A stretch of 24,400 nucleotides of DNA from a virus. Positions 1,961 through 13,693 of this stretch are shown here, one piece after another; position 1 is the stretch's first letter, and the number at the start of each line of letters is the position of its first letter. Where the stretch lies: IMG/VR virus record IMGVR_UViG_3300038825_001015, positions 1-24,400 of that record, one strand, 5' to 3'. The notes under the pieces were generated by a model that was not told the origin of the DNA, did not search any database, and was given only the letters and a program-made list of their open reading frames with translations. A program made the position numbers and the translations under genes.

Positions 1961-1995
1961 GTTTTTAATGGTTTTAGATAGTTTTAATCGGTTTT
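1961..1995 (+). repeat. 10-bp-phased GTTTT array upstream of the TerS-like gene
   Basis: GTTTT occurs at 1961, 1971, 1981 and 1991, exactly one per ten bases. The spacers (TAATG, AGATA, AATCG) are similar, and the last unit abuts the ATG at 1999. The array is matched by an inverted AAAAC array at 7411-7445; aligned as reverse complements, 28 of 35 positions agree. Phased A/T tracts at helical repeat bend DNA, and the arrangement also fits a row of protein-binding sites on one helix face. It occupies the place of a Shine-Dalgarno site for the gene at 1999, which lacks one. Confidence 0.75.
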
Positions 1996-1998
1996 CAC

Positions 1999-2568
1999 AT
2001 GGCGGGAAATAAGAACAGCGGCAACCGAAACACGCCCAAAAACAAGACGCCAATTGATAAGGAAAAAGAAATTTTATCACACTTAAAAAAAGGGAAGGGC
2101 ATCCGCGAAACTGCTGCTTTGGCCGAAGTGGGGCGGAACACCGTTGAACGTATCCGATACGAGAACGCCGAAGATTTACCCAAGTGGAAGAAAAAGACTC
2201 AAGAGAACATGATGCGCGTCCATTCAAAACTACTGGACAAGCTGGAAGATTCAATTGATGAACTAGAACCCAGTTCAAAAAACTTGGCTCAGGTTTCCAT
2301 TAGCATCGGGATTATTTCCGACAAACTGAAAGACAGTCTCCAAAATGGCCAGCAAACTATCGAGCACCGGCACGTTCACATTAACCACGGCGACCTTAAT
2401 TCTCTCCTATCGGATAAAAACACCGCTGGAAACACGCCAAACACTAAAGAAAAAGACAGTAGGCCAGAAACACGGCACACTTCGGCCAGCCCGGCGGATA
2501 TTATTGATATTGAGCCACAAAAAGAATCACCACACGAATCACAGACGGGGGGAGGGGGTTCGCGCTAA
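1999..2568 (+). CDS. Probable small terminase subunit or helix-turn-helix packaging protein (189 aa)
   Basis: The 189-residue product starts MAGNKNSGNRNTPKNKTPID. Residues about 21-56 hold a helix-turn-helix (EILSHLKKGKGIRETAALAE, then VGRNTVERIRYE). Residues 66-112 predict coiled helices (LLDKLEDSIDELEPSSKNLA, then QVSISIGIISDKL), followed by IEHRHVHINH and a long polar tail ending in GGGGSR. This order (basic start, HTH, central helical oligomerisation region) is typical of small terminase subunits, which recognise the packaging site. Position three genes before the large terminase agrees. No Shine-Dalgarno precedes the ATG; the GTTTT array touches it. A general phage HTH regulator is the alternative. 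Confidence 0.65.
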   Translation: MAGNKNSGNRNTPKNKTPIDKEKEILSHLKKGKGIRETAALAEVGRNTVERIRYENAEDLPKWKKKTQENMMRVHSKLLDKLEDSIDELEPSSKNLAQVSISIGIISDKLKDSLQNGQQTIEHRHVHINHGDLNSLLSDKNTAGNTPNTKEKDSRPETRHTSASPADIIDIEPQKESPHESQTGGGGSR

Positions 2569-2573
2569 TCGCC

Positions 2574-2627
2574 TCGCCTTGCTACATAATGGGTTTTAGC
2601 GTCATAAAAATTTTTACAAAAAGGCGA
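2574..2627 (+). promoter_or_regulatory. Inverted repeat that could mask the start of the next gene
   Basis: TCGCCTT (2574-2580) is the exact reverse complement of AAGGCGA (2621-2627), which includes the AAGG ribosome site and the first base of the ATG at 2627. The loop contains the palindrome AAAAATTTTT (2606-2615). In RNA the stem could lower initiation; in DNA the palindrome could be an operator. Confidence 0.35.
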
Positions 2628-3004
2628 TGAAAGAGACAGAACTTGCAGCATTCCTCGGAGTACCACGGCAGCAGATAGTCGCAGTCCGCAAGGCAAACCC
2701 CGAACACACATTCAAGGTAGGCCGGGCAATCCACTGGACATCAGACGGCAAAGCCTTCCTCTACAAAGAACTCGGACTGGACACGCCGCTGGAACCCGAA
2801 ACTCCAAAAGAAACAACCGCAACCACCCAACGCTGTTATTTCCCAAACCGCCATTTGGTGGAGGCCAAACTCAAAGACGGGAAAATAATCCTAGTCCGCG
2901 TAAAAGACTCACATATGTACGTCCCAAAAATGGAAATACCCGTAAAACCGGACGGCAACGGCTGGACAGTTACGCGGCATCCAAAGCGGCGGGGCCGAAT
3001 ATGA
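2627..3004 (+). CDS. Phage protein with N-terminal helix-turn-helix-like segment (125 aa)
   Basis: The 125-residue basic product starts MKETELAAFLGVPRQQIVAV. The first 25 residues look like a helix-turn-helix. The C-terminal half (VEAKLKDGKIILVRVKDSHM, then YVPKMEIPV) looks like a small beta domain, and it ends in KRRGRI. I recall similar two-part proteins next to terminase genes in environmental phages, with no assigned role. DNA binding or a part in packaging initiation is a reasonable inference. The next gene overlaps its stop as ATGA. A 7-bp inverted repeat covers its ribosome site. Confidence 0.65.
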   Translation: MKETELAAFLGVPRQQIVAVRKANPEHTFKVGRAIHWTSDGKAFLYKELGLDTPLEPETPKETTATTQRCYFPNRHLVEAKLKDGKIILVRVKDSHMYVPKMEIPVKPDGNGWTVTRHPKRRGRI

Positions 3005-3219
3005 ACGAGCAACGACAGGAAGAAGCCTTCAAAGACGCGCTGACTGACTTGGTTCAGCGATTCTATGATGAATTTGATCTGTCGTACCCGCAAATGGTGG
3101 GCATTCTGGAGATGACCAAGCAGGAGATTTTGGCCGACGCTGGAGAATACGTCACGTTGGATCAGCTAGACGTTGAGGTGGAGGACGAGGACGAAGACCC
3201 GCCCAACATACCGGAATAA
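3001..3219 (+). CDS. Small acidic hypothetical protein (72 aa) coupled to TerL
   Basis: The 72-residue product starts MNEQRQEEAFKDALTDLVQR and ends with a strongly acidic stretch (VEVEDEDEDPPNIPE). The N-terminal 45 residues predict helices that resemble a small helix-turn-helix (YPQMVGILEMTKQEILADAG). It overlaps the gene before it by ATGA and the large terminase by one base (TAATG). Tight coupling to the terminase suggests a packaging accessory, but I do not recognise the family. Confidence 0.6.
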   Translation: MNEQRQEEAFKDALTDLVQRFYDEFDLSYPQMVGILEMTKQEILADAGEYVTLDQLDVEVEDEDEDPPNIPE

Positions 3220-4850
3220 TGGCTTTCACTCCCACACCACATCCAGTGCTTGTCGTGCCGTCGCAGGACAAGATTCGCTCGTTTGTGGAGCGCGGGGAAG
3301 AAGGCACGGCGGAACTGGCCCGCATACTGGAGCAACGGGAAGAACTAATCCGACTGGAGAAGGAAGACCCATACCGCTACGGATACGAACCCCCGCACTG
3401 GAACGACGCCGACGAACTCTGGAAAGGCTGCGGCGAACTCCTAATCCAAGGAGGCAACCGCGCTGGAAAGTCAGAGTTTGCCGCCAAGCGCATCGTGCAA
3501 ATGATGACGGCGAAGAAAGGCGCGAAGGTGTGGGTACTGGGAATGACGGCACAATCCAGTATCCGCGACCAACAACAACTCATTTACAAATACATCCCGA
3601 CCGAGTGGAAGAACATTAAGAAGGGCAAAGTTCAGAATGTGAGTTTCAGCCAGAAGAATGGCTTCACCGAAAACACCTTTATCCTCCCAAATGGCTCGCA
3701 ATGTTGGTTTATGAATTATAGCCAAGAAATGCGAGTGATCGAGGGTGGCGAGGTGGACATGATCTGGTGTGATGAGCTTGTGCCGTTGACTTGGATTGAG
3801 ACGCTGCGATTCCGGCTGGTTACGCGGGCCTCAAGCCACGAACTATCTGGTCGTTTGCTACTCACCTTCACGCCCGTTGATGGATACACGCCAACCGTGA
3901 AGGAATATCTGTCTGGATTTAGAGTGCTGGAAACGCGCCCAAGTCCGCTTCTCCCCGACACCGTAAATGTGCCGGGATGTCCCGCTGGAACCATGCCGTA
4001 CACGGCGCAGTGTAGAAAACCCAACTCCCGCGCCATGTGGTTCTACACAGACATGAACCCGTACAACCCCTATGAGGAAATGAAAAAGACTCTCAAGGGC
4101 GAGAACAGCATACAGATTAAGCTGCGGGCGTATGGGTTTGCGGAGAATTTGTCGGGGAATCAGTTTCCAAAGTTTTGCGACTCGCACATTCTGGAAGCCG
4201 ACAAAATCCCCGAACACGGAACCAACTACATGGCAGTTGACCCGGCTTGGAACCGGAACTGGTTTTGCCTCTGGATTCGCGTGGACGACCGGGGGCGCAA
4301 ATTCGTTTACCGAGAATGGCCAAATCGTCACGACTATGGGGAGTGGGCAGTGCCGGGGGAGAAGATGGATGGAAGTCCCGGCCCGGCGCAGAGTGTTGGG
4401 GCTGGGCGCGGCCTACCCGAAGTGAAGGAGATTATTGGCGAACTGGAAAACGGGGAAGATATAGAAGCCAGATACATAGACCCCCGCGCTGGAGCTTCGC
4501 AAGCCGCTGGGCGCGAGGGCGGCACAAGCATCATTGATTTGTTAGGGGAAGGGGAAGACCCGATGTATTTTGAGCAAGCCGCTGGAATCTCAGTGGCGAA
4601 CGGACTCACCATTGTAAATGATTGGTTGAATTTTAATCAGTCTGAACCAGTCACGGCAGTTAATGAGCCAAACCTTTATGTGAGCGAGGAATGTGGCAAC
4701 CTCATATATAGCTTGCAGGAATGGACTGGAAAAGACGGGGAGAAGGGCGCGAGCAAAGACCCAATAGACACACTCCGCTACCTTGCCGTGATGGAGCCAA
4801 TTCATGTGACTGAACTCACGTTTGCCGCGTCTGGAGGGGGAGGATATTGA
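3219..4850 (+). CDS. terL: Terminase large subunit (543 aa)
   Basis: This is the packaging motor ATPase and nuclease. A Walker A (GGNRAGKS) lies at residues 78-85 and a Walker B with catalytic glutamate (DMIWCDE) at 180-186. A coupling-type motif (LLLTFTP) is at 213-219. The C-terminal RNase H-like nuclease domain shows acidic residues in MAVDPAW (D341), RYIDPRAG (D421) and DPIDTLRY (D514/D517). Length and motif order are normal and complete. The start overlaps the upstream stop by one base, and a MerR-like gene follows through a TTGA overlap. It acts with the TerS-like protein (1999) and the portal (5028). Confidence 0.95.
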   Translation: MAFTPTPHPVLVVPSQDKIRSFVERGEEGTAELARILEQREELIRLEKEDPYRYGYEPPHWNDADELWKGCGELLIQGGNRAGKSEFAAKRIVQMMTAKKGAKVWVLGMTAQSSIRDQQQLIYKYIPTEWKNIKKGKVQNVSFSQKNGFTENTFILPNGSQCWFMNYSQEMRVIEGGEVDMIWCDELVPLTWIETLRFRLVTRASSHELSGRLLLTFTPVDGYTPTVKEYLSGFRVLETRPSPLLPDTVNVPGCPAGTMPYTAQCRKPNSRAMWFYTDMNPYNPYEEMKKTLKGENSIQIKLRAYGFAENLSGNQFPKFCDSHILEADKIPEHGTNYMAVDPAWNRNWFCLWIRVDDRGRKFVYREWPNRHDYGEWAVPGEKMDGSPGPAQSVGAGRGLPEVKEIIGELENGEDIEARYIDPRAGASQAAGREGGTSIIDLLGEGEDPMYFEQAAGISVANGLTIVNDWLNFNQSEPVTAVNEPNLYVSEECGNLIYSLQEWTGKDGEKGASKDPIDTLRYLAVMEPIHVTELTFAASGGGGY

Positions 4851-5041
4851 GCATATACGAACTACCAATTTTGGTGAAGCCAGCCGACGTTGTGAGCGTG
4901 ACGGGGTTGAGTCGCCGAGAACTACTTTTACTGGAGAAAGCCAAAGTGTTGAGCGTTTTTAGAACGACTGGAAACCAACGCCGCTTCTACCGGGACGAAA
5001 TAATTAAACTTTTGAAGGAACAAAAAAATGGAAACAACTGA
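4847..5041 (+). CDS. Small MerR/excisionase-like winged-helix protein (64 aa)
   Basis: The 64-residue product initiates at TTG (4847), which overlaps the terL stop as TTGA and follows a very strong GGAGGGGGAGGA. Residues about 11-58 read VVSVTGLSRRELLLLEKAKV followed by TGNQRRFYRDEIIKLLKE, the helix-turn-helix plus wing and RxF/Y pattern of MerR-like DNA-binding domains. Such small proteins act as regulators, excisionases or architectural factors. Sitting between the terminase and the portal, it may regulate late genes or help the packaging complex recognise DNA. It overlaps the portal gene by 14 bases. Confidence 0.7.
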   Translation: MSIYELPILVKPADVVSVTGLSRRELLLLEKAKVLSVFRTTGNQRRFYRDEIIKLLKEQKNGNN

Positions 5042-7121
5042 TAAGTTGGCAATGGCGAGTGAATCGCCAGACATACGAGAACTGGCAGCGGAATATAGTC
5101 GTAGTTTACACGATGGAGAATCGCTGGAAAAAGTGTCTGCCGTAGATGATGTGCGTTATACGCGGTGGGAAGGACAAACGGACGATGGGCGCAAGCACAG
5201 CGAACACTTACCCGATGGGAACGAGGCTTTCCCGTGGGAAGGCGCGAGCGACACCCGCATCCCGTTGGCCGATCAAATCATCAACGACTCCGTGGACGTA
5301 CTGACCACTGGATTTAGCAGGGCAACGCTGAAGATTGGTGGGACAGAGATAGGCGACGTTGAAACTGCCGCCGTGGCGAACAACATGATGCGGTGGCAGC
5401 GCGACACCAAACTCTACCACACGCTAAATCGCGAGGCCGAACTACTGGCCCAATACGGTCAGCAATATGGTTGGAGCGTTTTGTTTGTTGGCTGGGAGCA
5501 GAAAAGTGCGGTTAAGGCGCGGACGTTAACGATGCAGGAGATTGAGCAGTTGGCCGCGCAATCCGAGGGGGAACTTAATGCGCTACCAGAAATGATAGCC
5601 GACCCCGAACAGGAAGAACAAGTTGCCGAGATTCTGCAAATGCAGTCGCCGGGGATGAGCATGAAGCGGGCGAGGGAAGCCGTTGGAGAGTTGCGGGAGT
5701 TTGGTGAGACACAAGTACCACAAGCCTACTTGGCCACGAACCAGCCCGTGGTGGCTGCGCTCAAGCCTTGGGAAGAAGTGAGTTTGCCGCCAGAGACGAC
5801 GGACTTGCAGTCAGCGCGGGTTATATTTAGGCGCGTATTTTTGAATGAGGTGGAGTTGCGGGCCAAGATTGTGGACGAGGGCTGGAACGAAGACTGGGTG
5901 GACTCGGCAGTTAAGACTGCGGGCAAATCCACGGAATTCCACGATTTCAGCCAGACTATATCAGACATGACTGCCGACCACATTGACCGGCAAGACAATC
6001 TGATAGAAGTGGTTTACGCATACACCCGCCAACTGGACGACAACGGCATACCGGGAATCTACTACACGGTGTTTAGTCCAATGGCGCAGTCGGACGACGA
6101 GGGCAACGACACCTTCGCCAAGCACGAACTACTGGATTACGCGCACTGCCGCTATCCATTTGTGGAGTATCGGCGCGAACGCCTCAAACGCCGCATTACG
6201 GAGAGCCGTGGAGTGCCAGAGATTTGCAGCACTTGGCAGGACGAGATCAAAACTCAGCGAGACGCCGTGTATGACTCAACCAGTTTTGAAACGCTGCCGC
6301 CAATCATGGTGAATAAGCGGCTGGGTCTTGCGAATAAGATTGGCCCGGCAGTGCAGTTGCCAGTGATGAAGGCTGGAGATTATGAGTTTATGCGACCCCC
6401 GGCTCGCCAGCCCAGCACTGCATTTAATCTAATAGAAGCAGTGGAAAGGCAAGCGGACGAATACTTCGGTCGTGCGAACTCGGCAATCGCGCCAGCCCAA
6501 ACCCAACTCAAGCAACAGCGCATGGTGAATAACTGGCTAACCGTCTGGACAGAAGCATATCAGCAAATGTTCCAGTTGAGTTTGCAGTATTTGTCGCCAG
6601 AGGAAATTAGCCGAATCACTGGAACCGACATAGTGCCGCCGAGCGATATGTACCAGTTTGATTTTGTGTTGAAGTTTGATGTGCGCGAACTAGATACAGA
6701 CTTCGTAAACTCCAAACTTTCCAACATCGCGCAGTATGTTGTGCCGCAGGATGTGAGTGGAGTGCTGGATAGGAACAAACTAATCTCCATGATAACGCGG
6801 GCTATTAGTCCCGACATTGCGGAGGAACTGGTGATTGACCAAGCTCCGGCATCGCAGAAGATGTACGAGGAAGTGAAGTCGCAAGTTGGTCAGATGATGC
6901 TGGGTAACGAACCATCCTACACGGAGAAAGACCCGGCGGCTCAGGCCAAACTCCAATACTTGCAGGAGATAATGAGCCGCAACCCGAAAGCGCAAGCCGC
7001 ACTGGAAGGCGACGAACTATTCGGGCAGTTAATAGAAAACTACACCAAAAACCTCCAAATGTCGGTGATGCAGCAGCAAAACGCGCAGATTGGGCGCATT
7101 GGAGTTAATCAAATTACATGA
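5028..7121 (+). CDS. Portal protein (697 aa)
   Basis: This 697-residue protein is the dodecameric head-tail connector through which DNA is packaged and ejected. The N-terminal block GNEAFPWEGASDTRIPLADQ (from residue 64) is typical of podovirus-type portals, with the clip and wing regions following. The region around MKAGDYEFMRPPARQPSTAF and a helical Gln-rich C-terminus (MQQQNAQIGRIGVNQIT, a barrel-like end) also fit. The size agrees with large podoviral portals. AAGGAA precedes the ATG, and the gene is preceded by the terminase genes and followed by a head module, the usual order. Confidence 0.88.
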   Translation: METTDKLAMASESPDIRELAAEYSRSLHDGESLEKVSAVDDVRYTRWEGQTDDGRKHSEHLPDGNEAFPWEGASDTRIPLADQIINDSVDVLTTGFSRATLKIGGTEIGDVETAAVANNMMRWQRDTKLYHTLNREAELLAQYGQQYGWSVLFVGWEQKSAVKARTLTMQEIEQLAAQSEGELNALPEMIADPEQEEQVAEILQMQSPGMSMKRAREAVGELREFGETQVPQAYLATNQPVVAALKPWEEVSLPPETTDLQSARVIFRRVFLNEVELRAKIVDEGWNEDWVDSAVKTAGKSTEFHDFSQTISDMTADHIDRQDNLIEVVYAYTRQLDDNGIPGIYYTVFSPMAQSDDEGNDTFAKHELLDYAHCRYPFVEYRRERLKRRITESRGVPEICSTWQDEIKTQRDAVYDSTSFETLPPIMVNKRLGLANKIGPAVQLPVMKAGDYEFMRPPARQPSTAFNLIEAVERQADEYFGRANSAIAPAQTQLKQQRMVNNWLTVWTEAYQQMFQLSLQYLSPEEISRITGTDIVPPSDMYQFDFVLKFDVRELDTDFVNSKLSNIAQYVVPQDVSGVLDRNKLISMITRAISPDIAEELVIDQAPASQKMYEEVKSQVGQMMLGNEPSYTEKDPAAQAKLQYLQEIMSRNPKAQAALEGDELFGQLIENYTKNLQMSVMQQQNAQIGRIGVNQIT

Positions 7122-7342
7122 TGCAAAACCTAACAGTGTTCCAATGGCAGGGTGAAAACCAACTTTGGGACGCTATACTACAAAATCTGGATGCCGCCAT
7201 TGATGTGGAGTTGGTGACGGCAGTGGGTTCAGAGATCGAGGGCGAGGCGCGAATACAGCAATGTGGTCGAGCCGATGGACTTCTGGACTTCAAAAGTCAT
7301 TTAGTTGAGTTGCGTGATACTGCGATGGCGAAGCTCAACTAG
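7118..7342 (+). CDS. Small hypothetical protein after the portal (74 aa)
   Basis: The 74-residue acidic product starts MMQNLTVFQWQGENQLWDAI and ends LRDTAMAKLN; a block reads IQQCGRADGLLDFKSHLVEL. It is predicted helical with no membrane segment. It starts within the portal stop (ATGATG, four-base ATGA overlap) and ends just before a strong terminator, so it closes the packaging operon. I recall similar small proteins following portal genes in environmental podoviruses, function unknown. Confidence 0.65.
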   Translation: MMQNLTVFQWQGENQLWDAILQNLDAAIDVELVTAVGSEIEGEARIQQCGRADGLLDFKSHLVELRDTAMAKLN

Positions 7343-7373
7343 GTATAGGCATAGGTGTACGTTCCATAGACAG

Positions 7374-7403
7374 CCGCTCATCCTTCGGGGTGGGCGGTTT
7401 TTT
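7374..7403 (+). terminator. Intrinsic terminator with UUCG tetraloop
   Basis: A 10-bp stem (7374-7383 with 7388-7397, two G-T pairs) closes a TTCG loop flanked by C and G, the exceptionally stable cUUCGg tetraloop. Six T residues follow at once (7398-7403). It lies 31 bases after the stop of the last packaging gene and would end that transcript before the scaffold and capsid genes. Confidence 0.92.
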
Positions 7404-7410
7404 ATTTTCA

Positions 7411-7445
7411 AAAACCCATCAAAACTATTCAAAACTATATAAAAC
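7411..7445 (-). repeat. 10-bp-phased AAAAC array (inverted partner of 1961-1995)
   Basis: AAAAC occurs at 7411, 7421, 7431 and 7441, exactly ten bases apart. On the minus strand this reads as four GTTTT units with spacers ATATA, GAATA and GATGG. It is a divergent inverted copy of the array at 1961-1995. Immediately after it lies a 6-bp inverted repeat AACTGC/GCAGTT (7443-7448 with 7458-7463). Confidence 0.75.
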
Positions 7446-7565
7446 TGCACACATATAGCAGTTAGTTTTCGACTTCCCACTCTCCCCTTCGTTTATAGCG
7501 GCTGAAAGGTTTTCTGCGTAAACCTACAAACGCTGCCAGCCCAACTTGCGGGGCTATAAATCAGC
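7446..7565 (+). promoter_or_regulatory. Probable control region upstream of the head genes
   Basis: This is the rest of the gap before the scaffold gene. It holds three short inverted repeats: AACTGC/GCAGTT (7443-7448 with 7458-7463), AGGTTT/AAACCT (7507-7512 with 7520-7525) and AGCCC/GGGCT (7538-7542 with 7551-7555). A pyrimidine-rich run lies at 7474-7489 and TTTATAG at 7491-7497. A promoter is expected here because a strong terminator lies just upstream, but I see no convincing -35/-10 pair. It could be read by a phage or phage-modified polymerase. Confidence 0.35.
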
Positions 7566-8633
7566 ATGAGCGATAAGACAATTGCCGACAGTGGCGCGGC
7601 ACAAGTGGAAGCCACAACGAACATTGGTGAACTATTGGACACCGATGGTTTAGCGAACCAACTGGAAAGGTTGTTGGATAGCGAACCGGAAGAAGCACCG
7701 GCTTCTCAGGAAGAAAACGCTAATGAGGAACTTCCTCCCGATGAAGGCGAGTCGAGTGACCCGCTGGAGGATGAGGAAAGTGCCGAAGAAACTGCTCTTT
7801 CTCAGAACGAAGATGAACCTGCGGAGGCTGAACCGGCTTTAGACGCAGATGAGGACGATGTGGAGGAACAAGCCGAGGGCGACAACCCCAACAAAGGCTT
7901 GTTAAAGCGCATTGATAAACTCACTGCAAAAAGACGGGAAGCTGAAGGCAAGGTGGATTCACTGGAATCGGAGGTCGCCAAATTACGCGCTGAACTAGAC
8001 GCCAAGGAGGAACTTCCCACCGTACCAGCAAGTGACGCATCCAATCCATACTCGCACCTAAATTCGGTGCAAGCGGTTGAAAAGGAATTAGATCAAGCCG
8101 AGGAAGTATTGGAGTGGTGCGAAGATAACGCTGATGGCGCGGTGGTTAAAAACTCAAAGGGCGAGGAAATAGAATACAGTGCAGAAGATATTCGCGGAGT
8201 TAAGAAGAATGCGCGGAAAGCACTCAAGCGTCATTTGCCCAAGCGATTGGAATACTTGAAGGAGGAATCGGAGGTAGCAGGACAAGTGGAAGAAGTCTTT
8301 CCATACTGGAAGGACAAGTCTTCACAAAGCTACCAAGAAGCCATGCAAATCCTTCGGAATCGCCCCGATTTGCGAAACCACCCTACATGGAAAGCGGACG
8401 TAAGTATGTTTTTGCTGGGTCTGCAATCTTATAGGGAAATGGTGAATAACACTGGAGCGAAAAAGGCTGCGAAGAAGGAAGTGAAGGCTGCGCCTAAACA
8501 ACCGGCTGCGCCCGCTGCCGCTCCAGCACAGACGAATCCAACTAAAGCCCGTTCAGCCGCCGCTAGGAAGAACTTTGGTTCTGACAAATCAGTAGACACT
8601 TTGGCCAATATATTAGAATCGGACTATGTATAG
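7566..8633 (+). CDS. Capsid scaffolding protein (355 aa)
   Basis: The 355-residue product starts MSDKTIADSGAAQVEATTNI. Residues about 40-110 are extremely acidic and low in complexity. Residues about 110-150 are a coiled coil (GLLKRIDKLTAKRREAEGKV, then DSLESEVAKLRAEL), a helical middle follows, and the C-terminal 50 residues are Ala/Pro/Lys-rich and basic. An acidic N-terminal half, coiled coil and basic C-terminal tail directly before the major capsid gene is the standard scaffold arrangement; the basic tail normally contacts the coat protein. I see no serine-protease motif, so a fused maturation protease is unlikely. No clear Shine-Dalgarno site precedes the ATG. Confidence 0.8.
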   Translation: MSDKTIADSGAAQVEATTNIGELLDTDGLANQLERLLDSEPEEAPASQEENANEELPPDEGESSDPLEDEESAEETALSQNEDEPAEAEPALDADEDDVEEQAEGDNPNKGLLKRIDKLTAKRREAEGKVDSLESEVAKLRAELDAKEELPTVPASDASNPYSHLNSVQAVEKELDQAEEVLEWCEDNADGAVVKNSKGEEIEYSAEDIRGVKKNARKALKRHLPKRLEYLKEESEVAGQVEEVFPYWKDKSSQSYQEAMQILRNRPDLRNHPTWKADVSMFLLGLQSYREMVNNTGAKKAAKKEVKAAPKQPAAPAAAPAQTNPTKARSAAARKNFGSDKSVDTLANILESDYV

Positions 8634-11161: not shown

Positions 11162-13693
11162 ATGGGAGCAAAATTTAGTAGTGGCGGTGGAGCCACAGTA
11201 TTTTACGACAAGACGGACACCCCCGGTGAGATAGTCACTGAGCTAGTCAACGCCTCAGACGGCGCGGGTCTGCATTTTGATGGTGCGGCGGGAAACGTTA
11301 GTGGCACAAGCAATCTCGCGCTTGGCTCTAAATATAGTGCGGAGTTTGTCATCAACTACACGGGTTCCTCAAATAATCGGCTGTTTGACATAAACGGTGA
11401 CACCCGCTTCATCGTTGAATTTAACCGTTCTGGCTTTAGTGGGAAAATTGCTGGTTACGATAGCGATTTTTATGAACTTTGTGACATACCCGACGATGGC
11501 GTTTTTCACCTTACTGTCACAGTAGACGGAACTGCCGTCAGCGCATACGTTAATGGCAACCTCGCTGGTACTGCGACAAAGAACAACAGCACCAGCATTG
11601 ACACCGTCACGCAATGGACTATCGGCGCGAACGACGGAGGCAGTTTTGGTCATTTTGAAGGCACTATATATCGCGCAAGGTTCTACAACAAAGCACTTGA
11701 ACCAGACGAGGTGCGGACAGCATACGAACGCGCTGACGTTGATTATGCTGACCAGTATGGCAGTCAAGGTTCGCCTTACACCAGCAACTTCAGCAGCGGA
11801 ACTGATAGTTTTTCCGCATACGGCGGTGCATTGGTATCGCACAGCGGAAGTCAAATAAACATCACCAGCGTTGCGGCAACCGGTAAAGGCATTTTTCGCA
11901 GCTTAACATTTTCAGAGCCGAATAAAAAATACCGAGTTAAGCTGACTGGCAGCGTAGCGGCTGGAACTAAAAACATCGGTATTGGTATATTGTCGGCTGG
12001 CGCTGGGGATGCAGCTAACAGGATAACGCTAACCACAACGCCGACAACGCACACTATCGAGGTCACTTACCCAAGCGGCTCCCAAATAAATGTCGCGAGT
12101 CAAGACGCCGTTGACACAACGGTTTCAATTACGTCGCTGGTGATTGAACAAATCGGCGCGGTCAGCGACTACGACCTAGCATACGCACAACCAGCACTCA
12201 GTACACTCATACAGGACAGAAGTAATGCCGCAGACGGAGTGGCATCGAGTACCGGAGTCACGCAAGTTCAACCTATAACTCAACTTAACAGTACCTCCGC
12301 TCGCATAGGTTCAACGCAACTGGCGGCGGGGACTTCGCCTTACATTCCTGCGGATGGTGATATTATAGTTTCTGGCGGTGTTGGTGTTGGTGCTGCGCCG
12401 GGTGCTGGTGGCCACGGACTTACAGTCGATAAGGTAGTAAACGACGATTGGGTTGCGAAGATTAAAAACAGTAGCAATACAACACCCTATGGACTGCAAG
12501 TCGATTGCCAAGGTTCAAACGCCGTAACAGCATTAGCAGTTTATGCGGGTTCCTCGCCAAACAACACTACGTTTACCATCAAACCCTCCGGGGTCATCGT
12601 AGGTGACACACCAAACGCAATCTCCGGAGGCATTCCCGATTTACACGTTAACAGGACGGCTGGAGGAACACTCGTCCTGTCTCGAACTAACGGCGACAAC
12701 AATGGGACGCTTGGCACAGTTCGCTTTGGCAACACCGACACAGATTCAACTCTGGCGAATATTATTGCAACTGAAGCGGGTACAAAAACTTCGTCCAAAC
12801 TAGAGTTTCAAACGCAAACAACGGGCGCGGCGGCAGCAACTCGTTTGACGATAGACAGCACCGGCAAAACGACTGCGAATGCACTTAAAGTTTTAGATCC
12901 AACGCACGGCAGGTACTTCGACTTCGTGCTGGACAGTAGCGCAAGTTATCTCGACGTATCGCACGCGCTGAATTTGCGTGTCAACGGTGCTTCAAGTCTG
13001 GCGACTGCGCTCGCCATAGACTCCAGCGCAAACGTGACTGTTAGTGGGCCAAAGCTGGAGGTTACTGACGATTTAGCAAGCGCACACACGATTCTAAAAC
13101 TGAAAAACACCAACGCTGCTGCTGGCTATGGTTCGCAAATCCAGCTAGAAGACCACGACAGTAAATACTACATCAGTATCGTCGATAGCGATTTGAAGTT
13201 TTTCAACGGCGCTACTACCACGGTGAATTTTGCGAACTCCGGCTTGGCCTCGTTCAGCGGTGGCATAGCGTTCCCAGCACCTACTCCTGCAAGTGCAGGA
13301 ACACCGGCTGCCTCTTCAGTTTTAGATGTATACGAAGAAGGCACATTTTTGCCAAACGTAGGTGGCAATGCCACATACACATCACGCGAAGGTCGCTACA
13401 CAAGAGTAGGAAGGTTGGTCACTTGCACGTTTGATATGACGATAAACGCGATTGGAACCGGCTCGACTAATGTCGTGAGCGGACTGCCGTTTGCAACGGG
13501 CGACAGTATAGGTGCTGGCGGAAATGTGAATTACTATTCTGGGTTGGCATTGTCGCCTGTTTTATTTGCGCCAACAGTTTCTGGCTCTGGCGTTCAAATT
13601 AGGTCAGCGACATCCGCAGCGACCAGTCCGAGCAATCACGCAATATTTGCCAACGGGGCGCGTGTTGCGTGCGTCGTGACTTACACAGTTTAA
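11162..13693 (+). CDS. Long tail fibre with LamG/concanavalin-like domain (843 aa)
   Basis: The 843-residue protein contains several modules. Residues about 38-195 form a LamG/concanavalin-like jelly roll (SAEFVINYTGSSNNRLFDIN, VDGTAVSAYVNGNLAGTATK, ending IYRARFYNKALEPDEVRTAY). A second beta domain at about 205-335 resembles a carbohydrate-binding module. A long Thr/Ser/Gly-rich shaft follows. The last 120 residues (YEEGTFLPNVGGNATYTSRE, then GRYTRVGRLVTCTFDM) match a C-terminal domain common on phage fibres. It probably contacts surface glycans. AAGGA precedes the ATG. It is poor in the CTGGA word that is common in its neighbours (4 copies in 2.5 kb), a sign of separate origin. Confidence 0.8.
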   Translation: MGAKFSSGGGATVFYDKTDTPGEIVTELVNASDGAGLHFDGAAGNVSGTSNLALGSKYSAEFVINYTGSSNNRLFDINGDTRFIVEFNRSGFSGKIAGYDSDFYELCDIPDDGVFHLTVTVDGTAVSAYVNGNLAGTATKNNSTSIDTVTQWTIGANDGGSFGHFEGTIYRARFYNKALEPDEVRTAYERADVDYADQYGSQGSPYTSNFSSGTDSFSAYGGALVSHSGSQINITSVAATGKGIFRSLTFSEPNKKYRVKLTGSVAAGTKNIGIGILSAGAGDAANRITLTTTPTTHTIEVTYPSGSQINVASQDAVDTTVSITSLVIEQIGAVSDYDLAYAQPALSTLIQDRSNAADGVASSTGVTQVQPITQLNSTSARIGSTQLAAGTSPYIPADGDIIVSGGVGVGAAPGAGGHGLTVDKVVNDDWVAKIKNSSNTTPYGLQVDCQGSNAVTALAVYAGSSPNNTTFTIKPSGVIVGDTPNAISGGIPDLHVNRTAGGTLVLSRTNGDNNGTLGTVRFGNTDTDSTLANIIATEAGTKTSSKLEFQTQTTGAAAATRLTIDSTGKTTANALKVLDPTHGRYFDFVLDSSASYLDVSHALNLRVNGASSLATALAIDSSANVTVSGPKLEVTDDLASAHTILKLKNTNAAAGYGSQIQLEDHDSKYYISIVDSDLKFFNGATTTVNFANSGLASFSGGIAFPAPTPASAGTPAASSVLDVYEEGTFLPNVGGNATYTSREGRYTRVGRLVTCTFDMTINAIGTGSTNVVSGLPFATGDSIGAGGNVNYYSGLALSPVLFAPTVSGSGVQIRSATSAATSPSNHAIFANGARVACVVTYTV

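Follow-up and report, generated by a model that had tools for sequence, protein, structure and literature searches.

The DNA analysed here (the window, 24,400 nucleotides) carries two arrays of four repeats with a step of exactly 10 bp, array A in front of the genes for DNA packaging and array B in front of the genes for the scaffold and the capsid. In related phages the two arrays are conserved in position, change together from lineage to lineage, and are linked both to a small gene of the packaging block, gene 4847, and to the lack of a consensus −35 element before the scaffold gene. The gene 4847 product probably uses A and B as its operators: from array B it would activate the capsid operon, taking the role of a −35 element, and from array A it would regulate the packaging operon.

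The window comes from a tailed (marine) phage whose capsid protein is of SU10 type and whose terminase falls in the Terminase_6N class, and the closest public phage record, as judged by the terminase large subunit (TerL), is 32% identical at best. Minus-strand genes fill the left end to about position 1813. The plus-strand packaging operon, with the gene order TerS, 2627, 3001, TerL, 4847, portal and 7118, extends from 1999 to a hairpin at 7374–7403, and the capsid operon begins with a scaffold-like gene at 7566 ("operon" denotes gene order here, not measured transcripts). The features are as follows:

1961..1995, plus strand: array A, four GTTTT units with a 10-bp step, starting at 1961, 1971, 1981 and 1991, which is −38, −28, −18 and −8 relative to the TerS ATG, the same place being kept in relatives
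1999..2568, plus strand: TerS-like gene, first of the packaging operon and directly 3′ of array A, with an HTH and an HxHxHxxHxD(L/V/I)N motif in the alignment
3219..4850, plus strand: TerL, matching Pfam Terminase_6N (4e-5) and the PHROG terminase
4847..5041, plus strand: gene 4847, for a 64-aa BldC-like winged-HTH protein, the proposed reader of arrays A and B
7374..7403, plus strand: terminator-like hairpin, CCGCTCATCC-TTCG-GGGTGGGCGG followed by T6, which ends the packaging-portal operon just 5′ of array B and is conserved in the alignment
7411..7445, minus strand: array B, four GTTTT units (AAAAC starts at 7411, 7421, 7431 and 7441) with a 10-bp step
7494..7499, plus strand: TATAGC, a −10-like element 72 bp 5′ of the scaffold ATG
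7504..7565, plus strand: scaffold-gene leader, with a predicted H-type pseudoknot and a hairpin, assessed by a covariation count
7566..8633, plus strand: scaffold-like gene, first of the capsid operon and immediately followed by the major capsid gene (SU10_MCP, 6e-43)

The original prediction had described two 10-bp-phased GTTTT/AAAAC arrays, one abutting the TerS start and the other lying with the portal-operon terminator on one side and the scaffold gene on the other, and both the arrays and their positions agree with the sequence. They are exact repeats and stand far above chance: when up to two mismatches were tolerated, only these two places in the 24.4 kb matched the four-unit pattern, and 100 dinucleotide-preserving shuffles of the window gave no match. 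No further exact three-unit arrays were found in the record besides A and B. The reported agreement of the two arrays as reverse complements at 28 of 35 positions holds, but it is composed of 20 fixed core positions and 8 of 15 spacer positions and follows mostly from the shared core. The first genes after both arrays indeed lack a Shine-Dalgarno site, as had been pointed out, but this is not specific, and we discarded it as a special mark of the array-flanked genes, since about half of the 26 listed genes are also without one. Two outcomes had been named as speaking against the prediction, a lack of the arrays in close relatives and the occurrence of equal arrays at random positions; what was found favours the arrays. 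When a single mismatch was tolerated, two contigs from close relatives, of 42 kb and 65 kb, showed the A and B sites and one isolated weak match, at position 12535 of the 42-kb contig (L010). In this contig of 42,225 bp array B occurs once and array A twice, close to the two ends and at a distance of 41.5 kb, the two copies adjoining different TerS alleles. It looks like a circularly permuted population with a genome of about 41.5 kb and the arrays at these two loci.

Relatives were collected as 80 IMG/VR loci from TerL searches and then as further sets around three other lineages. Nearly every lineage with a TerL identity of at least 77% has a 10-bp-phased array at both places, built from a lineage-specific repeat: GTTTTN5 in the lineage of the window, GGTTYGGGNN in L012/L017/L019/L020, a GTTTGG type in L063/L064, a GGTTGTG/GGTTTTG type in L022–L036, and GTTAAGTTAG in L030. 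In the distant L071/L082 lineage (TerL 57–58%) the repeats at A and at B are of ACCTTACCCG type, and their orientation is direct, not inverted. The lineage forms are GTTTTN5, GGTTYGGGNN, GTTTGGNNNN, GGTTGTGNNN/GGTTTTGNNN, GTTAAGTTAG and ACCTTACCCG, and the step is always 10 bp. About 150 loci were scanned blind for windows of four units phased at 10 bp, and of the hits ranked highest by a four-unit column score most fell at the A and B places. Among lineages with little sequence in common between their repeats, array B begins about 150–160 bp 5′ of the scaffold start. Array A is weak in several lineages (p ≤ 0.01 in 7 of 19). Within a lineage, the A and B sequences are each other's best match (rank 1 of 720 permutations, the B interval leaving out the array of L019, where there is an insertion). 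The orientation of B is constant in the array-bearing lineages examined, whereas that of A is flipped in L071/L082.

What is conserved, then, is a phased, directional pair of putative recognition sites for one diverging factor, and neither DNA bending nor inversion, since some lineages lack A-tracts and one has arrays in direct orientation. The inverted arrangement noted at the outset is found in most lineages, but L071/L082 demonstrates that it is not obligatory. Bending by phased A-tracts, acting as a passive promoter or origin signal, had been suggested as well, and in the window's own lineage the tracts of four T residues with their 10-bp step would suit it. The explanation is nevertheless very improbable and largely refuted by lineages without A-tracts: GGTTYGGGCC, ACCTTACCCG and GGTTGTG arrays keep the step, although most of their units have no A-tract of four or more. 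For a packaging or origin signal no support was found here. The observation that A and B are reverse complements and change together could also point to pairing of the arrays as complementary RNA or DNA strands, with antisense control between the two operons. We give this scarcely any credence, as the agreement comes mostly from the shared core and the direct arrays of L071/L082 cannot pair; RNA–RNA pairing was rejected on the same orientation.

The loci that lack gene 4847 provided a further comparison. In the lineage with 72% TerL identity no gene lies between TerL and portal (gap of 10–18 bp). A 10-bp-phased array at B (p ≤ 0.01) was found in 22 of the 25 near loci with gene 4847 and in none of the 17 without it, and control periods of 9 and 11 at B reached this threshold in no locus. 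Exact TTGACA in the pre-scaffold region had the opposite distribution: it was present in all 17 near loci without gene 4847, with a −10-like hexamer 16–17 bp downstream, and in none of the 25 with the gene. The comparison was then extended to distant relatives that had played no part in forming the idea: TTGACA lay in the 200 bp preceding the scaffold gene in 11/11 loci without gene 4847 and in 0/41 with it. Combined, this consensus −35 element precedes the scaffold gene in 28/28 loci without gene 4847 and 0/66 with it, counts that overstate independence, as the association of array, gene and −35 element amounts to two to three evolutionary switches, for which a sign test cannot be significant. 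On the TerL tree each trait must have changed three times; two of these changes are independent and fall on well-supported branches, and the traits are opposite in every independent pair. As judged from these comparisons, the strength of the apparent exchange between gene 4847 and the −35 element is its complete retention inside each clade. Many distant relatives (e.g. L073–L081, L114 and L121) have a gene 4847 homologue and no detectable array before the scaffold gene, and these are also without TTGACA. A TATA-like element at −71 to −76 from the scaffold start is present in 24 of the 25 array-bearing near relatives; array B ends 49 bp 5′ of the conserved TATAG, which is farther than the usual −35 contact.

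A multimeric protein had been predicted to bind the arrays, with the TerS ring, the gene 4847 product or a late regulator as candidates. The comparative evidence favours such binding sites and the latter two candidates, whereas comparisons of the TerS HTH contradict the TerS ring. The window and L008 have the same kind of array with gene 4847 100% identical and the TerS HTH only 43% identical; L066, whose contig stops short of gene 4847, has the same kind of array at 34% HTH identity; and L012 and L019 share their array with 100% identity in gene 4847 and 40% in the TerS HTH. L063/L064, on the other hand, differ from the window in the array, with the TerS HTH 82% and gene 4847 52% identical. 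Several types of TerS HTH are shuffled within one TerL–portal background. TerS was therefore rejected as the array reader, the arrays being unchanged at 34–43% HTH identity and different at 82%. Even so, the TerS gene directly follows array A, its product has an HTH at the N terminus, and HTH rings that recognize pac sites are known for small terminases (PMC4737164). The arrays could be pac-like sites at which the HTHs of a TerS ring, bound to four phased repeats, start or position packaging; SPP1/P22-type pac sites likewise adjoin TerS and involve repeated contacts. We regard this as quite unlikely, because the array sequence is independent of the TerS HTH type, whereas the sequence of a small-terminase pac site would follow the DNA-binding domain of TerS. 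In addition, two sites 5.4 kb apart, mostly inverted and once direct, are unlike one packaging start, and the ends of the 42-kb contig near A, with their different TerS alleles, have a circularly permuted look and not that of a fixed terminus.

Gene 2627 was likewise rejected as the reader, since the same array class occurs in L033 and L035 despite 42% and 70% identity to the gene 2627 of the window. Nor is it the correlate of the arrays, since it persists in 15/15 distant loci without gene 4847 among those reaching far enough upstream. Gene 4847 passes all these comparisons, although it sits in the conserved TerL–portal block and its tracking of the arrays is partly linkage. The exact 10-bp-step arrays linked to it are its candidate operators.

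A profile of 30 gene 4847 homologues compared with solved structures matched BldC best (6amk, 4.7e-8; 6ama, 1e-6) and then RdfS (1e-3), whereas the single-sequence match to BldC was weak (0.26). AlphaFold2 modelled the protein as a single winged helix (pLDDT 90). With this model Foldseek placed BldC chains on top, and VIA-align 2 placed Pukovnik Xis (Z 9.4) and BldC (Z 8.2) first, scores that are middling for so common a fold. At 64 aa the protein has the size of the BldC family, which consists of a winged HTH only, about 60–70 residues, with no coiled-coil or effector domain, and the closest solved sequence relative of its family profile is BldC. Members of the BldC family bind DNA cooperatively and distort it. 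The wing residues His46-Arg47-Arg48 of BldC, located in the minor groove, are aligned with Gln-Arg-Arg; the two arginines are kept in near lineages and varied in distant ones. A classical MerR regulator (dimer, palindrome, coiled coil) was rejected, because a 64-aa winged HTH leaves no room for a coiled coil and the linked site consists of direct repeats. Among public phages no close relative of gene 4847 was found, only weak Cro/MerR-like matches (E 0.007 or worse), and no late regulator of the BldC type from a phage came up in a literature search, a result that does not mean that none has been described.

The fold comparison also lists the DNA-binding domain of gpNu1 (1j9i), the packaging-motor winged helices 7lw0, 7lwr and 7lxs, and excisionases. 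Together with the location of gene 4847 between TerL and portal and of the arrays on both sides of the packaging module, this would suit a packaging or architectural factor, resembling the winged helix of lambda gpNu1 at cosB or an excisionase, with the arrays as sites of nucleoprotein assembly. This reading is unlikely in our view, since it leaves unexplained the consensus −35 element before the scaffold gene wherever gene 4847 is absent.

The reading of the arrays as operators is modelled on BldC, which binds head to tail on direct repeats; at smeA four regularly spaced tracts are protected, with one helical turn between them, and the binding unit is AATTxxxx(C) (PMC5859096). Streptomyces BldC, whose complex with the smeA–sffA operator is PDB 6AMA, is the best sequence and fold match of the gene 4847 product, and both proteins are small winged HTHs without a dimerisation domain. 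The arrays resemble that operator in having four direct repeats one helical turn apart and, in several lineages, an AT-rich tract plus a GC part. Unlike BldC, gene 4847 is phage-encoded, its proposed operators lie at two late phage promoters, their sequence has diverged by lineage, and head-to-tail binding is here a proposal. The fold is also shared with RdfS, a filament-forming protein reported to occupy about 10 bp per molecule (PMC11963761), and with the winged-HTH excisionases Xis of lambda, Pukovnik and Tn916. In contrast to these, gene 4847 is found among virion genes, and the arrays are found at promoter-like regions. Phage activators that replace a −35 element include T4 MotA, Mu C and lambda CII. 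The model for gene 4847 shares with them a phage-made factor and promoters without a good −35 element; it differs in fold and operator, and in that the exchange between factor and −35 element is seen here across lineages.

We propose that about four monomers of the gene 4847 protein dock head to tail on each array, one at each helical turn. At B, 5′ of the scaffold/capsid operon, the filament would act as an activator and substitute for the −35 element. At A, in the leader and start-codon region, the protein would feed back on its own packaging operon, repression or a roadblock being favoured. As a result, expression would shift from the packaging to the capsid operon. B is most likely an activator site, as suggested by its constant orientation, the missing TTGACA and the TATA-like element in 24/25 near loci; a constant orientation at B while A flips would be expected if B alone were the activator site. 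For A, we tentatively judge a repressor or roadblock site the likelier, since it overlaps the leader and start-codon region and since its orientation flips in L071/L082. The wider reading is, to our judgement, evenly poised: in this large uncultured phage group the capsid operon would be controlled by a BldC-type filament activator with operator arrays that co-evolve in pairs, and lineages would have switched between factor plus array and a −35 promoter.

If the proposal is correct, a group without a close public phage record uses a tiny phage-made BldC-type regulator of late genes with a readable operator. Its lineages would then be a natural series of protein variants with matching DNA sites, on which sequence choice by filament-forming proteins can be tested. 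The exchange of regulator and −35 element would be a clean case of promoter rewiring, and the lineage switches a natural record of a virus gaining or losing its own late-gene regulator.

Several other features of these loci were observed. In L042, L055, L059 and L062, which have no arrays, an imperfect palindrome of GGTTCCTTAAAGGAATC type lies between gene 7118 and the scaffold gene and is possibly the site of a different regulator. A conserved block, ACCCCCGnnnnCATTGGnTAAAAT, at about 1880–1910 of the window and about 100 bp 5′ of TerS, is kept across lineages with differing arrays and is possibly a promoter. The TerS gene (1999–2568), which has only weak matches in PHROG, occurs as alleles with the HTH 34–80% identical to that of the window before a nearly identical TerL–portal block (L005–L010, L066–L068 and L179). 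It looks like a recombination hot spot, since different alleles are found at the two ends of the 42-kb contig. Gene 2627 (2627–3004) has an HTH-like and a second conserved domain and no Pfam match, and it occurs in almost every relative, distant ones among them.

In the leader of the scaffold gene, the predicted pseudoknot pairs 7507–7510 with 7522–7525 and the loop 7516–7518 with 7531–7533, and the hairpin after it pairs 7539–7541 with 7552–7554. A search of Rfam gave no match for the pseudoknot or for any part of the window. The covariation count was 23 cells changed on both sides, against 6.9 ± 2.3 in shuffles (0/500 as high), and the predicted register was far better than slid registers. 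The compensatory changes span lineages with and without gene 4847. The pseudoknot is separate from the arrays and also occurs in lineages that lack them. A similar leader layout was seen by eye in L073 and L080.
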